DNA of 64,000 nucleotides. It comes from Thermoplasmata archaeon. Lineage in GTDB: Archaea; Thermoplasmatota; Thermoplasmata; Methanomassiliicoccales; Methanomethylophilaceae. The notes below the pieces were generated by a model, which searched no databases, had not been told where the DNA came from, and was given only the letters and a program-made list of their open reading frames with translations. Within the stretch, counting starts at the first letter, position 1. Each line of letters starts with the position of its first letter. Made by a program: the position numbers and the translations under genes. The DNA lies in NCBI GenBank assembly GCA_015063285.1, contig SUST01000001.1, positions 62,001 through 126,000 on the forward strand, in the 5' to 3' direction. Positions 3,271 to 35,509 of the stretch are shown here, in pieces.

Positions 3271-4968
3271 TCATTTCTTTGCGGGTTTCTTCTTCTTTTT
3301 GGCCGCTTTCTGAGCGCGCATGTTCGCCTTTATGGTCTCGGCGATCTCGGCCCCCTCTGCGAGTCCGTCGGTGATCTTGTTGATATCGTATCTGAGCACG
3401 ACCCAACCGTCCTCCTTCAGTTTGGCCTCGACCTCGGGGTTCTCGGATCCGGGCTCCTCGACATAGACTGCGACCTTGCCCTTCACGAATGCTACGGGTA
3501 TGTTGTATTCTCCGTAGTTCCTTCTGCACCTCATACCCTTGTTCCAAGCGGCCCTTCTGACGAGCGCTTCAGGGGAGTAGTCGGTGTAGATGTCATCCAT
3601 CTCCTCCTCGGAAAGCTCTTCGTCCGGTTCATCTTCGGGTTCGGAAGCGACTTCGGAAGCTGCTGCGACTGCTGCCGCGGCGACCACCTCTTCCTTCACG
3701 GGCTCTGCTGCGGGCTCTTCTTTCACAGGTTCCGGTTCTGCGACAGGCTCCTCCTTCACAGGCTCGGGTTCCGAGACCGGTGCGGATGTGGGCTCAGGCT
3801 CTTCCTTCAAAGGTTCGGGTTCAGGTTCTGCTACGGGTTCCTCTTTGACAGGCTCAACAACAGGCTCTTCTTTGGCCGGTTCAGGTTCTGCGACAGGCTC
3901 TTCTTTCACAGGGGCCTCCTCTACTACAGTTTCCGGTTCGGGCTCCTTCTTCGGAGGAACGATCTTTCCGCCGACATCCTTGGACGAGACCAGCCTTGAC
4001 ATGAAGTCGTTGTTGATCTTCTTGGGCTCTTCCTTCTTAGGCTCTTCCTTCACAGGCTCGGGCTCTGCTGCAGGTTCCTCTTTGACCGGCTCGGGTTCGG
4101 GCTTCGCCTCTTCCTTGACCGGTTCCAGTTCTGCGACAGGCTCTTCCTTCACAGGCTCGGGCTCTGCTACGGGCTCTTCTTTGACGGGTTCCTCGACGGG
4201 AGCCGCCTTGATCTGCTCTTTGGGTTCTTCCTTGACGGGAGCTTCCTCTTCGACGGGTTCCTCGGCCTTGGGCTCTTCCTTTGCCGCGGCGACCTCTTTC
4301 TTGTGCTCCTCGTGCTTGTGCTTCTTCTCGGACTTCTTCCTGGCCTCGAGCTTGTCCTGTCTCTCCTTCTCTTTCCTGGCCTGGGCTTCCTGCTTGCTCC
4401 TCTGTTTCTGAGCTTTCTTAGCAGATTTCCTGTTGGGATCGATCGGATTCTCCTCAACCTCTCCGTTTGCACCCATGACGAGGTACACTGCCAACCAGAA
4501 GCCGACGACGATGACTGCCGAAGCCTGAGTGATATCAAGCGAGGTCTTCATGAAGATGAGGGCAACGAGGATCAACTCGATGATGAGGAAGAAGATGTCC
4601 ACATACATCATGATGACATTCTTCCTTCCCTTATCGACCAAGCACCCTACAAGGATCGTCAACGCGCCGATTGCAGCGACGATTCCTACGACGATGTAGG
4701 CGTCCATCTCGACGATCTTGATCAGCACGTACGCCAACGCGGCGACGATACCCAATAACAAGACGGCCAGGCCGTCTATCTTCTTCGATGATTCGCCCAT
4801 AACCATCAAGATTCCAGCTATGAGTGCGAACACACCGCTTACGGTCAGAGCGATAGTCCACTCCTGGCCGTCTCCCTTCATTAGTAACATGACAAATGCC
4901 GTGATAATAAAAAGGACTGCAGCAAACAATCCCACGAATTTTCCATATTTACTGTCAAGTGTTCCCAT
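3271..4968 (-). CDS. Multi-TM protein with long KEEP-type linker and endonuclease-like C-terminal domain
   Basis: 565 residues in three parts. Residues about 5-165 hold six hydrophobic helices. Residues about 175-440 are a charged, low-complexity linker, first K/R/E/A-rich (KEKERQDKLEARKKSEKKHK), then a run of EEPVKEEPVAEPEP-like repeats. The C-terminal 100 residues (YSPEALVRRAAWNKGMRCRRNYGEYNIPVAFVKGKVAVYVEE...DGWVVLRYD) resemble the Vsr/DUF559 fold, which usually ends GW.VLR. The usual catalytic Asp of the VDF strand is Ala here, so nuclease activity is doubtful. The start MGTLDSKYGKF sits just before the first helix; the message may be leaderless. Function unknown; a membrane-tethered nucleic-acid-binding role is a guess. 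Confidence 0.7.
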   Translation of the reverse strand: MGTLDSKYGKFVGLFAAVLFIITAFVMLLMKGDGQEWTIALTVSGVFALIAGILMVMGESSKKIDGLAVLLLGIVAALAYVLIKIVEMDAYIVVGIVAAIGALTILVGCLVDKGRKNVIMMYVDIFFLIIELILVALIFMKTSLDITQASAVIVVGFWLAVYLVMGANGEVEENPIDPNRKSAKKAQKQRSKQEAQARKEKERQDKLEARKKSEKKHKHEEHKKEVAAAKEEPKAEEPVEEEAPVKEEPKEQIKAAPVEEPVKEEPVAEPEPVKEEPVAELEPVKEEAKPEPEPVKEEPAAEPEPVKEEPKKEEPKKINNDFMSRLVSSKDVGGKIVPPKKEPEPETVVEEAPVKEEPVAEPEPAKEEPVVEPVKEEPVAEPEPEPLKEEPEPTSAPVSEPEPVKEEPVAEPEPVKEEPAAEPVKEEVVAAAAVAAASEVASEPEDEPDEELSEEEMDDIYTDYSPEALVRRAAWNKGMRCRRNYGEYNIPVAFVKGKVAVYVEEPGSENPEVEAKLKEDGWVVLRYDINKITDGLAEGAEIAETIKANMRAQKAAKKKKKPAKK

Positions 4969-29638: not shown

Positions 29639-30961
29639 ATGGAAATGGAAGAACTAACACCCCATATTCAGGAATTGCAAAGGGTGCTCGGAGACAAGAT
29701 CGACGAAGAACAGCTCATCGCGGAGCTGAACAAGTATCTGAACGAGTACCACGTGAACATCGATGCCGCCAAAAGGGGCATCATAAGGAAGTACGGGGGG
29801 ACCGACACGGCCACCTTCGTCACCGGCAACTCACTTGTGAAGAAGATCTCCGAACTCACGGGTTCGGAGCAGAACGTGGACATCACGGCCAAGGTGGTAT
29901 TCGTTGACAACAAGGAAATCACAGTCAAGGGTCTGCCCAAGCAGATCATATCAGGTATCCTTGCGGACGAGACAGGATCGGTGTCCTTCACAGTCTGGGA
30001 GCCGGGAGCGCTCGTACTCGCGAAAGGATCGGTATACCACTTCAGGAACTGCTACTGCAAGACCTGGAACGACAAGGCCCAGGTCAATCTGGGCAACCGC
30101 GGTAAGGTCGAACCCGCCGACGGAGTGAAGATCGACCTTCCCGAAAGGCAGATAACAGCCGCACCCACAGAGATCAAGATCGGAAAGATCAAGGAAGGCA
30201 TGGGCAGCGTCACGGTCACCGGTAAGATAATCTCCGTAGAGACCAGGGAGATCACTGCCAAAGGGGAACAGAAGACAGTCTACTCGGGAATCATCGCCGA
30301 TGACACCGGGAAGATACAGTTCTCGGCATGGAGCGACTTCGGCCTCAAAGAAGGGGAGTCCCTGTGCATCCAGAATGCCTACATCAGGTCATGGAAGGGC
30401 ATCCCCCAGCTCAATCTGGGCGACAGGTGCGAAGTGAGCCGCGTGGATGAGGTCACCGATATCGTTGACACATCCGCCAACATGAAGACGGTCGACGAGA
30501 TCACCAGGATAGGCGGCGGACTGGACATAACATTGGAAGGTCTGGTCGTGGACGTCCGCCAGGGAAGCGGTATCATCAGGAGATGCCCCCAGTGCAACCG
30601 TTCCATGCTCAACGGCGCGTGCACCACCCACGGAATCGTAGAAGGCGTGATGGATCTGAGGCTCAAGGTCGTCATCGACGACGGTACCGGAGCCATCGGC
30701 GCCATCATTAACAAGAACGACACCGAGAAGCTCACCGGAGTGACCCTCCAGGCCGCCCGCGGACTGGCCGCGGTGAAAGGCGAAGCCGTCGTCGGAAGGG
30801 AGATCACCAGCAAGATCCTCATGAAGAGGGTGAAGGTGACCGGCAACGTCATGAGCGACGACTACGGCCCCAGCATGATAGTCAAGACCGCCAGCCTGGA
30901 GAAAATAAACCTGCAGGCCGAAGCGAACAAACTCCTCGACGAAGTGGAGGCAGCGATATGA
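29639..30961 (+). CDS. rpa: Replication protein A, single-stranded DNA-binding subunit
   Basis: 440 residues: a short helical N-terminus (1-60), then at least three OB folds (about 75-165, 185-270, 290-420). The third contains a zinc finger CPQCNRSMLNGACTTHG with three Cys and a His, as in euryarchaeal RPA41. It coats single-stranded DNA in replication, repair and recombination. Start ATG 29639 has GGAAGGAG 9 bases upstream and a TTTTATAC promoter near 29582; the open frame further upstream lacks family similarity. It overlaps the partner gene by 4 bases. Confidence 0.92.
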   Translation: MEMEELTPHIQELQRVLGDKIDEEQLIAELNKYLNEYHVNIDAAKRGIIRKYGGTDTATFVTGNSLVKKISELTGSEQNVDITAKVVFVDNKEITVKGLPKQIISGILADETGSVSFTVWEPGALVLAKGSVYHFRNCYCKTWNDKAQVNLGNRGKVEPADGVKIDLPERQITAAPTEIKIGKIKEGMGSVTVTGKIISVETREITAKGEQKTVYSGIIADDTGKIQFSAWSDFGLKEGESLCIQNAYIRSWKGIPQLNLGDRCEVSRVDEVTDIVDTSANMKTVDEITRIGGGLDITLEGLVVDVRQGSGIIRRCPQCNRSMLNGACTTHGIVEGVMDLRLKVVIDDGTGAIGAIINKNDTEKLTGVTLQAARGLAAVKGEAVVGREITSKILMKRVKVTGNVMSDDYGPSMIVKTASLEKINLQAEANKLLDEVEAAI

Positions 30962-31866
30962 ACGCCAGGGAGACCGCATGGAGGGTGTTCGCCACCGAGC
31001 TGAACTCCACCACCCTCGAGATCAAGGCAACTGAGGAGAAGCAGCCTTCCTACATCGTCACCCCGCTTGGTGCGAAGATCAACAGGGTGCTCATCGCCGG
31101 CGTCATGACCGAGAAGGAGAACATCGGGAGCGAAGAGGAACCCATGTGGAAGGCCAGGATACAGGACGTGTCCGGAAGCTTCTACATCAACGTCGGAAGA
31201 TTCCAGCCGGAGGCCTCCGCGGCCATAGCAGATATCGAGATCCCAAGCTTCGTGGCTGCCGTCGGAAGGGTAAGGACATACACCACCGACGACCAGAGAG
31301 TCTTCGTGTCCGTCAGGCCGGAGCACATCGTCCCCATCGACGAATCCGTACGCAACGAATGGATCCTCGAGACCGCCAAATCCACTTGGAAGAGGCTCAA
31401 GGACACCAAGAAGGTTCTCGGAATGGGGGATGCCACCGAACAGGACCTGATCAAATCGGGAATGTCCCCTACCGAGGCATTCGGCATAACATATGCACTG
31501 GACAACTACGGCCAGATGCCCGATTCCACACTGTACCTCAAGACCATCCAGGCAGCCCTCAGGATGCTGCTCCCCGACAGGGATGTCGACCTCGGGTTCC
31601 CCGAGGACTACTCGGACGAGCCCGACGAGATAGAGATGCCCGAGAACGGCGAGAGCTCAGGCAACAACGCCGCACAGCTCGAGGACATGATCCTCAGGCT
31701 CCTGGAGGAGCTGGACACCGACGGCAAGGGTGCGCCCAGGGAGGAGCTCGAGAGAAGGGCCGAGGCCGAGGGCATCAGCAGCATCGAGCTCGAAGAGGTC
31801 TCCAACACCCTCATGGACAAGGGACTCGTCTACGAACCTAACCTGAGATACCTCAAACGCATTTGA
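30958..31866 (+). CDS. RPA-associated protein (COG3390 type)
   Basis: 302 residues. It has one OB-like domain at residues about 35-125 (KINRVLIAGVMTEKENIG...WKARIQDVSGSFYINVGRFQPEA). A helical middle follows, and a C-terminal winged-helix-like segment (about 235-302) ends in ALVYEP-type LVYEPNLRYLKRI. Proteins of this family are encoded next to archaeal RPA and form a complex with it. The 4-base ATGA overlap with rpa indicates coupled translation. An acidic linker (about 215-235) separates the two ends. Confidence 0.88.
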   Translation: MNARETAWRVFATELNSTTLEIKATEEKQPSYIVTPLGAKINRVLIAGVMTEKENIGSEEEPMWKARIQDVSGSFYINVGRFQPEASAAIADIEIPSFVAAVGRVRTYTTDDQRVFVSVRPEHIVPIDESVRNEWILETAKSTWKRLKDTKKVLGMGDATEQDLIKSGMSPTEAFGITYALDNYGQMPDSTLYLKTIQAALRMLLPDRDVDLGFPEDYSDEPDEIEMPENGESSGNNAAQLEDMILRLLEELDTDGKGAPREELERRAEAEGISSIELEEVSNTLMDKGLVYEPNLRYLKRI

Positions 31867-31947: not shown

Positions 31948-32211
31948 ATGAAGATAAGGCAGCATCAGCTGATAGACATCATCATCGCCAATATGCTCAT
32001 AGCGGCGTGCGTCATATCTTTCCTCAAGAGCAGAATTGTTCTAGATGAACTCAGCACCATCTCCTCATACTTCATGTTGGCAACGATAATCTTCGGAGTC
32101 GCCGTCGCCTTATATGTCATCTATACCAAGGATCAGGTGTTCGACCCTCTCAATTCCAGCCTGGATGAGAATCCAGAATGCGAAGAGGATGACAAGATCA
32201 GACTTTCTTGA
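31948..32211 (+). CDS. Small two-helix membrane protein
   Basis: 87 residues: two hydrophobic helices (about 8-27, IDIIIANMLIAACVISFL, and 42-60, MLATIIFGVAVALYVIY) and an acidic tail. The start at 31948 follows a TTTTTT tract and an AT-rich TATA-like run, so it may be leaderless. Its last 14 bases overlap the convergent glycosyltransferase gene. No family recognised. Confidence 0.6.
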   Translation: MKIRQHQLIDIIIANMLIAACVISFLKSRIVLDELSTISSYFMLATIIFGVAVALYVIYTKDQVFDPLNSSLDENPECEEDDKIRLS

Positions 32212-33385
32212 TGGTCTCGAACGACTTGAAGTCGGGTGGCCTGATCAGAGCATATATCGAGGTCATACCGTCATAGAACGCCACCGGAATCGTCAGTATG
32301 AACATCGCTATCGATATGGATGCGGAATGCATGAACGTTGCACCGAACTGATAGTACCCAAAGAAACATACCATGTTCATCACCGCTATGAATTGGGTGA
32401 AATCGCTGAGACCCGGAGCCATGAACAGCAGGACCGGGAACAGGCACAGGCACAGTAGTCCTAGGATTCCGTTTATGTACATGTACATGTAGAACAGCCA
32501 AGTCCTGAGCGAGAGCTTCCTGACGACGCCTTTGTTGTTCATCAGGGACCAGAACCATCTGCGTCTCTGCTTGTAATAATCCCTGACGGATGTTGGGGGA
32601 GCGATATAGATGTGGCCGACAGGGATCTCCGCGAACGTGTACTTCTTGGAGATCGACAACCCCATTATGAGGTCCTCTGCACCGTATGTCCCGTAATCCC
32701 ATCCGATCTCGTATTCGACATCGGCACGGACAACCAGACCCTCCCCGTGAACGAACTGCGGGCGGTTCTTATGGTTGCATCTCTTGCACCACGCCTCGCA
32801 GTTGGCGATCCTGATGATATCCGCAAGGGACGAGAACAGATGCCTTCCCCACGCGCGGAGCCTTATGCATCCCTGCGCCCCTTCGCTGATCAGATAGTAT
32901 TTCACGAACTCCAGGTAGGGCTTGTCGATTATGCTGTCATCATCCAGGTGGCAGATGTATGTCTCCTTTCCAAAACCCATCTCGTGGAATGCCTCGATAC
33001 CGTATTGCATGGCACGCATCTTGCACAGGGATCCGTTGGGGCATTTGTAATCCGAAGGGACGGTTACCATCCTGCAGCTGTATTCGAATGTATCCCTCTC
33101 CTCCTTGACTACGAAAATCTCGGAGATCACGTTGTAGCTCTTGACCCTCTTGATGATCTTCTCGACCACATCAGTAGCCATCCCGTTGGTGGTGATTGCG
33201 ACGATGACGTTGTTTGAGACCTCCAGCTTCTCATGCCTATCGAACAGCTTCCTATCGGTCATCAGCATACTGTAATCGATAAGGAAGAGCTGATAGAAAG
33301 CAAAAGGAGTGTAGAAAAGGAGCATCAGAGTAAGGACTAACTGGGGCACGGTGGTGATACCAAGTATGTCCAAACCCATGATCAT
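32198..33385 (-). CDS. Membrane glycosyltransferase, family 2
   Basis: 395 residues: one N-terminal helix (about 10-32), a cytoplasmic GT2 domain (about 55-280) and about four C-terminal helices. DDDS (about 149-152) is the nucleotide-sugar/metal motif, GAEDLIMGL gives the catalytic ED region, and QRRRW (about 275) is the Q/RxxRW motif of processive synthases such as cellulose and hyaluronan synthases. It probably polymerises or transfers sugars for a surface polysaccharide. No other glycan genes surround it. An ATG two codons downstream is an equally possible start. Confidence 0.88.
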   Translation of the reverse strand: MIMGLDILGITTVPQLVLTLMLLFYTPFAFYQLFLIDYSMLMTDRKLFDRHEKLEVSNNVIVAITTNGMATDVVEKIIKRVKSYNVISEIFVVKEERDTFEYSCRMVTVPSDYKCPNGSLCKMRAMQYGIEAFHEMGFGKETYICHLDDDSIIDKPYLEFVKYYLISEGAQGCIRLRAWGRHLFSSLADIIRIANCEAWCKRCNHKNRPQFVHGEGLVVRADVEYEIGWDYGTYGAEDLIMGLSISKKYTFAEIPVGHIYIAPPTSVRDYYKQRRRWFWSLMNNKGVVRKLSLRTWLFYMYMYINGILGLLCLCLFPVLLFMAPGLSDFTQFIAVMNMVCFFGYYQFGATFMHSASISIAMFILTIPVAFYDGMTSIYALIRPPDFKSFETIKKV

Positions 33386-33429: not shown

Positions 33430-34625
33430 CGTAGAATAAAGTAGGAACATAAGGTCAATCCTGACTCCACATCAGCCGTTGGCTAATGCGGAGCCCTACC
33501 CACACAAAGAGGGTACGGAGCACAGGATGGTTACCCATCCTGTACTTCGGGAGTTTATTCCGGAGGACCTTATCACCCCGGATCCGTGACACCAGGATAT
33601 GCACCACGATGTCTACGGTGCCGCTAACAATGTGGTTCCACACACCAACGCCCTTGCGGGCACTGGTGCAACACACACTGCACCGAGTTCACGCGACAGT
33701 CTTGATTCCCGACAGGAACCAAGAACGCCGACGATTGCTCGCGGATCAAGCAACAGCACACTGCCACAGGGCACCAAAACACTTATGATGTGTTTACGTG
33801 CAACCGTATGGGCCGCCGAACCCCGAGGGGAACGACGAAACCGCGATGTGTATACGCGATACGCGACACAAGACCGTCCACCATACGGCGGGCACTCCCA
33901 AACCGCGACACACGATGATGATGACGCTGCACTCCTTTGCAGGAAACGCACACGCAACCGTTTCGCACACCACGCCACATACGACGCTGATCCAATACCG
34001 CGCACAAATCTCATCGGGCTCTGCCCCCGACCTTCCCCGTTTACCGGGGCTGCACTGTCACCGTGCTTGAGCCATATCCAACAACCCATCACCTTACGGT
34101 GCGGGCGCCAACATATTGCCACCGGGAATACGGCGCACGCATCGCCTGAGCGATACATGCGTCACCCGCTGTCATAGCCAGTGTTCTTCCGGGTTTTACC
34201 CCGGACGTCCCCAACCCATGGGGACACATCGTTCACGTGCTGATCTGTCGCATATGTCTGACCGTAAGCAGCCGCCTGACCCCAAAGGGATCGACTGCAC
34301 TGCCACGGTGGTCCACCATGACACAGTGTCATGATGGCTGATGCCATATACGTACGCTATGCGCGGATTGCGGCTTCGCAACAACCAACCAGGACTCGAA
34401 CCCGGTCTCCACCCATACGGGCGACGCGCTGTCATGCGCTTGGCGCTGCACCATGCAGAAACTTCAGCCTACCCGACGACTCAGCGTCGACAGCCGAGCA
34501 ACCCTTTCCCTCCATATGGAGGTACTCGGTCCTCTTCGTTTCTCACCCGACCTTGACGGACGGTACATGGACCTAAGCGATTACTCGCTACACTTACTCA
34601 TGGAGTTTGTGATGTATTAGGCAAC
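33430..34625 (-). ncRNA. Very long candidate structured non-coding RNA (about 1.2 kb)
   Basis: No frame in this GC-rich stretch gives a credible protein, yet perfect hairpins fill it. Examples are 33465-33493, 33522-33543, 33643-33668, 33700-33724, 33777-33795, 34035-34049, 34090-34101, 34141-34154, 34188-34205, 34207-34225, 34334-34347 and 34509-34522. Long-range helices include 33449-33456 with 33566-33573, and 33804-33811 with 33881-33888. The loops at 33531, 33654 and 34094 are GUAA, GCAA and GUAA only when read on the minus strand. A minus-strand TATA box (34646-34655) and a T-rich end (about 33400-33440) fit one transcript. No rRNA, tRNA, RNase P, SRP or group I/II intron signature was found. 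Confidence 0.6.
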
Positions 34626-34645
34626 AGTATACTATGCTTGATTTC

Positions 34646-34655
34646 TATAAATAAC
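34646..34655 (-). promoter_or_regulatory. TATA box of the long RNA
   Basis: GTTATTTATA on the minus strand, at a boundary where the sequence changes from AT-rich to GC-rich. Start of transcription is expected near 34620-34625. Confidence 0.45.
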
Positions 34656-34842
34656 TTTTGATTGTTATATCCAATTGTTAGATTGCATAGATGGGTTGTA
34701 AGCAATTAAAATGGACACTTTTTCTAATGTCTGGCTAGAATTTTTTGTATCCGTTCGCTTTTATATACGATTAAAATAGGTTGGATGAATCCTATACAGT
34801 CTTTCCTTTAGAAAAAAAGACCCTTTCTTTATAATTGAATTG

Positions 34843-34879: not shown

Positions 34880-35509
34880 TCAGACGAGCTTTGCTTCGAA
34901 GTCGTCAATGGACAACTGGAAGTCGTTGGGGTCCTTGAGGTCACCGCGCTTGGTGAGGAGCTCCCTGGCGAGGATCCAGTAGACACATGCGAGTGCGCGC
35001 CTTCCCTTGTTGTTGGTGGGGATGACGAGATCGACGTTCCTGGTCTCGTTGTTGGCATCGCAGAGTGCGACGATCGGGATTCCGAGGTTGAGTGCCTCGT
35101 TGAGTGCCTGCTTGTCGGCTGCGGGGTCGGTGACGACCAGGACCTCGGGCTCGATGAAAGCGGGGTTCAAGGGGTTGGTCAGTGTTCCGGGGACGAAACG
35201 GCCTGCGAATGCGGGTGCTCCGATTGCCTTGGAGAACTCCCTTGCGGGCTTCTGTCCGTACTGCCTTGCAGAGACGACGAGGATCCTCTTGGAGTCGAAC
35301 CTTGCCAGGAAGGAAGCTGCGTCCCTAAGCCTGTCGTCGGTCTTCTTGACATCAAGGACGTACAGTCCGTCCTGCCTGACCTTGTAGATGAAATCCTTCA
35401 TGTCTGCGGATTTCTGCTGTGTTCCGATGTGAACTCCAGATGTCAGGTAGATGTCCTCTTCCACCAGGAGATCGGTTCCCGGTGCTACATATGATTCCTC
35501 TTCGCTCAT
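34880..35509 (-). CDS. rps2: 30S ribosomal protein S2
   Basis: 209 residues, the normal archaeal/eukaryotic S2 (uS2) length. [21 protein letters not shown] at residue 22, [24 protein letters not shown], and [26 protein letters not shown] are highly conserved. It binds the small-subunit head-body junction. It follows rpoK by 16 bases, the usual archaeal order in the L13-S9-RpoN-RpoK-S2 cluster, of which only the end is present here. Confidence 0.97.

Follow-up and report, generated by a model that had tools for sequence, protein, structure and literature searches.

A candidate large structured RNA with a conserved head and a variable tail in one genus of Methanomethylophilaceae

The locus and its coding potential

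The large ornate RNAs studied in the literature consulted are bacterial or phage-borne (PMC12286853, PMC9723947). Positions 33430-34660 of the window (the whole 64,000-nt stretch of DNA analysed, from the draft genome G000, which comprises 1.79 Mb in 33 contigs) raise the question of whether an archaeal chromosome can encode such a molecule. The original prediction, made from the letters of the window, suggested that this block looks like a single giant structured RNA, read from the minus strand, and may be a new archaeal class. The genes around it are housekeeping or other cellular genes (Table 1), and its proposed minus-strand 3′ end (near 33437) is a T-rich stretch. The block has a GC content of 0.55-0.60, compared with 0.38 in the AT-rich upstream flank, as had been described, and the absence of a credible protein was borne out as well. 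The two longest open reading frames inside the block have no Pfam match, and their similarity to the homologous loci is scattered over several frames, at an identity below that of the DNA itself. A protein-coding gene was rejected on these grounds (no Pfam match and no consistent frame).

Known RNA families do not account for the locus either. A covariance search of the whole window with Rfam 15 returned two distant tRNAs and nothing else (the nearest tRNAs are 25 kb from the locus), and permissive thresholds (E up to 5 in the window and 0.5 in the homologous loci) added nothing convincing over the block. No rRNA, RNase P or intron model fell on the locus, the group I and group II intron models had no match in the window or in the homologous loci, and neither ARAGORN nor Rfam found a tRNA or tmRNA fold in it. 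RNase P, rRNA, tRNA, tmRNA, intron and ornate-RNA families were thus ruled out by Rfam, ARAGORN and a genome search. The large RNA has no match in phage, plasmid and IMG/VR collections, which leaves a phage or plasmid origin unsupported; one IMG/VR match (L124) was set aside as a chance motif near tRNA genes. Searches of open-licence papers turned up no account of such an RNA in this group of methanogens.

Table 1. Positions of the features discussed, in window coordinates unless a locus name is given.
Feature	Position	Strand	Basis
Upstream motif CATCCAAC	34780..34787	minus	-133 from the TATA box at the window locus
Upstream motif AGCCAGACAT	34727..34736	minus	-82 from the TATA box at the window locus
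Promoter element TTGGATATA, 11 nt before the TATA box	34666..34674	minus	position -20 in 5/5 loci; also before the second RNA family
TATA box TTATTTATA	34646..34654	minus	sequence; position kept in five loci
Proposed RNA gene, ~1.2 kb	33437..34628	minus	start predicted from TATA spacing; 3′ boundary also predicted
Conserved 5′ head domain, ~290 nt	34338..34628	minus	63-76% identity among loci over aligned stretches; covariation; alifold z -8.2
P1: CAC-AA-ACTC-CAT-GAGT-AA-GTG	34591..34611	minus	86% of cells paired in five sequences; one double-change pair
P2: GCGA-GUAA-UCGC, GNRA-capped hairpin	34577..34588	minus	three double-change pairs; GNRA loop in 4/5
Multibranch closed by CCAUGU (34565-34570) with GCAUGG (34451-34456)	34451..34570	minus	97% of cells paired; one double-change pair
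T-loop-like hairpin CCGGG-UUCGAGU-CCUGG	34389..34405	minus	stem kept in the alignment; U-N-N-R-A-G-U loop in 4/5
Possible head-closing helix GUUGC (34621-34625) with GCAAU (34367-34371)	34367..34625	minus	RNAalifold, sequence-only alignment; partly kept across five
Variable 3′ tail, strongly folded	33437..34337	minus	z -7.15 alone; no similarity to homologues
rpsB, upstream neighbour	34880..35509	minus	Pfam Ribosomal_S2; same neighbour in G011
Glycosyltransferase gene, downstream neighbour	32198..33385	minus	Pfam Glyco_trans_2_3; absent at the corresponding place in G011
Second RNA family	L092:2610-2878, L092:3219-3487, L093:2182-2433, L102, L105, L106, others		
Second RNA family	L095:2540-2809	minus	

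Folding of the minus strand

Compared with shuffled sequence, the minus strand of this non-coding, GC-rich block (33430-34660) forms a far more stable fold. The global fold of this strand over 1,199 nt has an energy of -532 kcal/mol (z -5.95 against shuffles), which is 110 kcal/mol better than that of the plus strand over the same full length. Two overlapping pieces gave z-scores of -6.8 and -6.5 on the minus strand, and the plus strand of one piece gave -3.45. The many hairpins that had been offered as evidence of structure fared differently from the total folding energy, since the 23 hairpins counted are within about 1.6 standard deviations of the 17.6 ± 3.3 found in shuffles. With so small an excess over shuffles, hairpin number was abandoned as an argument.

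The individual elements named in the original prediction are present. Rechecking of the letters confirmed exact reverse complementarity between 33449-33456 and 33566-33573, and between 33804-33811 and 33881-33888. The hairpin at 33643-33668 reads CACCAGTGCCC-GCAA-GGGCGTTGGTG, the GUAA, GCAA and GUAA loops occur on the minus strand, and a minus-strand TATA box, GTTATTTATA, lies at 34646-34655. All of the helices named fall in the 3′ part of the proposed RNA and none within the ~290-nt head; since the 3′ part has no sequence counterpart in any homologue, it is folding energy that argues for them.

Homologues and their distribution

DNA searches found homologues in two other genomes, G011 and G024. 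With a covariance model built on the first 166 positions (R1), G008 (E 4.6e-20) and another copy in G024 were added; these score 144.8 and 53.9 bits, respectively, with a refined model that includes them (R2). Matches to the covariance models have E-values of 1e-29 or better at four loci and 3e-9 at the fifth. The comparison therefore comprises five sequences, all from draft genomes: the window locus and four others, in 4 of the 31 genomes of the genus (G000, G011, G008 and G024), with no locus elsewhere among 102 genomes of the family or 400 genomes drawn from the class. Weaker model matches in G005, G010, G015, G018, G030 and G068, as well as in G024 C11, G011 C41 and G000 C1:209677, look protein-coding by eye and were discarded. 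An RNA present in only 4 of 31 genomes of its genus is not a housekeeping RNA.

Only in G011 is the copy syntenic with the window locus, behind rpsB; the other three are at unrelated sites. As neighbouring genes differ from locus to locus, a leader or cis-regulator, either of rpsB or of the glycosyltransferase gene, is excluded. The stretch downstream of rpsB (up to the homologue of window positions 30958-31866) varies among relatives (L013, L014, L016-L019), in which AMP-ligase-like, acyltransferase-like, oxidase-like and other genes are found behind rpsB. Because different relatives hold different genes there, this position is regarded as a variable cargo site, and the large RNA occupies it in G000 and G011. 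The RNase P RNA gene of G024 has one of the two copies of the large RNA some 2 kb away (L005:1694-1988 minus, L005:3980-4750), an arrangement that differs from that in G000.

Conserved head and variable tail

The five loci are alike over their first 235-294 nt, the head, which contains the elements listed in Table 1; one of these, the T-loop-like hairpin, is not a tRNA according to ARAGORN. In an alignment of the heads guided by the covariance model, which is fitted to its own model and hence favours pairing, 90% of cells are paired and 7 pairs show double changes. None of 500 shuffles of this alignment reached the observed double changes or covariation score, and sliding the partner by 1-3 columns lowered the pairing to 34-46%. 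A sequence-only alignment gave an RNAalifold energy of -38.2 kcal/mol, against -12.5 ± 3.2 kcal/mol for column shuffles (z -8.2, with a nearly equal z of -7.8 on the opposite strand); 18 of its 56 pairs carry a double change, and its covariation term is slightly unfavourable. Head covariation is modest, because there are only five sequences.

Beyond the head, blastn found no similarity in any pair of the five loci, whose total lengths range from ~535 to ~1,200 nt. The heads folded alone are ordinary (z +0.9 to -2.4), whereas the tails, as single-sequence predictions, have z-scores of -7.15 at the window locus and -3.61, -5.32, -6.92 and -7.21 at the others. Because the tails are dissimilar yet very stable and the heads fold ordinarily, the head is kept in sequence and the tail only in stability. 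The architecture thus joins a conserved head to a tail that evolves fast and is very stable. The G011 tail has an imperfect internal duplication of ~107 nt (L004 about 4190-4300 and 4415-4525), which suggests that tails grow by module duplication.

For the original prediction, these results divide the locus in two. Comparative support extends over the first ~290 nt (~34628-34338), where four further loci were found and where the head covaries in shuffle tests; the remainder of the 'one giant structured RNA' is the 3′ part that lacks a sequence counterpart. The more general proposal, an archaeal minus-strand, TATA-driven, non-coding structured RNA of no described family, is supported by the homologues, their shared promoter, the covariation and the absence from Rfam.

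Promoter and a second RNA family

The sequence TTGGATRTA (ATGGATGTA in G011) is located exactly 11 nt ahead of an archaeal TATA-like box in all five loci. Farther upstream, CATCCAAC occurs at -130 to -145 in four loci and, with one mismatch, at -74 in the fifth. The motif AGCCAGACAT is exact at -79 to -82 in the window locus, G011 and G008, has two mismatches in G024a and is absent from G024b. The promoter of the large RNA looks strong, because a gene of another species (L011:1480-1620 in G004) that we take, by eye, to be a 5S rRNA gene is preceded by 22 nt identical to part of the G024 promoter.

The pattern TGGATRTA-N7-AAA-NN-WWTWWATA, with one mismatch allowed, was searched in the 102 family genomes and gave 46 matches versus 2 for a reversed control. 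The element, mostly with one mismatch, is also found upstream of open reading frames in L063, L064, L072, L080 and L104 that read like methylamine/methanol methyltransferase corrinoid proteins. One possibility is that it marks very high expression; another is co-regulation with methylotrophic methanogenesis. It also offers a simple route to further RNAs in the order, and has already yielded a second family.

In two sister genera, the promoter matches stand before another RNA, which is about 260 nt long (~250-270 nt) and is present in one to three copies per genome in 9/9 genomes examined and in none of the other 138 genomes of the order that were searched. It has a multibranch structure with a closed terminal helix (GCACGCG...CGCGUGC), and its covariation is strong (17 double-change pairs, 0/500 shuffles). 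Rfam has no match to it, and its matches in IMG/VR are weak. Like the large RNA, it is a stand-alone gene with a closed multibranch and the same promoter element at the same spacing. Unlike the large RNA, it is short, has no variable tail, and occurs in every examined genome of its genera. Homology between the two families was not detected in either direction.

Interpretation and alternatives

With a probability of about 0.6, the large RNA is a stand-alone, strongly transcribed, non-coding structural RNA, an accessory class within one Methanomethylophilaceae genus, that acts in trans as a ribonucleoprotein (RNP) or RNA particle. It would be transcribed from its own archaeal promoter, which has shared upstream elements. 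The head could then serve as a functional module that is recognised by a constant partner, such as the ribosome, a protein or a further molecule of the same RNA. The tail, on the other hand, would need only length, compactness and stability in order to supply mass or a scaffold, and its exact sequence would be free to drift. Such an RNA would work in trans, as an RNP or an RNA-only particle, and not as a leader, riboswitch or guide. If the tails are interchangeable, selection would act on stability and size and not on sequence, which has rarely been shown for RNA. A broader proposal, tentative and on balance doubtful, is that this is a new archaeal large-RNA class with a probably factor-binding head and a tail selected for length and stability, that the promoter defines a set of stable RNAs of gut methanogens filled by unrelated RNAs in different genera, and that the particles resemble the cages of ROOL and GOLLD.

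The patchy presence in 4/31 genomes and the unrelated sites, with two copies in G024, could instead reflect a small mobile or selfish element (or what remains of a virus or plasmid) that relocates among intergenic positions together with its promoter, any benefit to the cell being incidental. Unlinked copies share motifs across 130-145 bp upstream, the position behind rpsB hosts variable cargo, and a transposase gene is present a few kb away in G008. However, the common position in G000 and G011 favours vertical descent, no recombinase is common to the loci, the phage, plasmid and IMG/VR collections are without a match, and ends or target duplications are not definable; we consider an element of this kind rather unlikely. 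The complete divergence of the tails while head and promoter stay, together with the accessory distribution, would also be expected of an arms-race RNA, whose hypervariable tail would diversify under selection while serving as a decoy, sponge or guide directed at viruses or other elements. Against this, the neighbouring proteins include no defence system (the sole PADLOC match is an ABC-transporter ATPase domain), viral matches are lacking, and any guide sequences in the tails would be hidden by the selection of these tails for stability, making this account distinctly improbable.

Neither decay nor chance offers a better explanation. The size, the GC content and the T-loop-like hairpin do resemble parts of known structural RNAs, but it is very improbable that the locus is a pseudogene or relic of one (rRNA, RNase P, SRP RNA, group I or II intron, tmRNA), given that Rfam returns none of these families for the window or the homologous loci, whether at gathering or at permissive thresholds, that an intact RNase P RNA is present elsewhere, and that the promoter and compensatory changes are conserved. 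Scarcely credible, finally, is an intergenic stretch that is rich in GC and hairpins by chance, or a protein gene that escaped recognition. The hairpin count is close to the shuffled expectation, and shuffles are also surpassed by a coding control; against this reading stand the global folding z of about -6 with its strand preference, the conserved promoter, the covariation, the absence of a Pfam match and the lack of a consistent frame.

Comparison with known large RNAs

ROOL and GOLLD are large ornate RNAs of bacteria and phages, encoded by phages or prophages and often near tRNA islands (PMC12286853). The large archaeal RNA is like them in that it is hundreds to over 800 nt long, stand-alone and non-coding, has many hairpins and no obvious protein partner, and has variable parts beside conserved parts. 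It differs in that the Rfam 15 models do not match it, that it is on an archaeal chromosome with neither a phage nor a tRNA-island setting, and that its 5′ head is conserved whereas its entire tail is variable. ROOL and GOLLD form homo-oligomeric RNA-only complexes. OLE RNA (~600 nt, bacteria; PMC9723947) is likewise large, stand-alone and highly structured, with an unsettled function. In contrast to the archaeal RNA, which has no Rfam match and no conserved neighbour, OLE shows extensive sequence conservation and has partner proteins that are known from Gram-positive bacteria. Because it fails the model tests and the phage association, the large RNA is not filed with ROOL, GOLLD or OLE. Archaeal RNase P RNA (RF00373) is also a large structured archaeal RNA, of about the size of the head, but its genuine gene is elsewhere in the genome (contig C16, 207 bits) and, unlike the large RNA, does not have the TTGGATGTA element. 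As far as sequences can indicate, the RNA described here is of the generic kind of large stand-alone structured non-coding RNAs, being non-coding, conserved in structure, equipped with its own promoter and independent of its neighbours. If this is true, the question posed by the large ornate RNAs extends to the methane-forming archaea of the animal gut.
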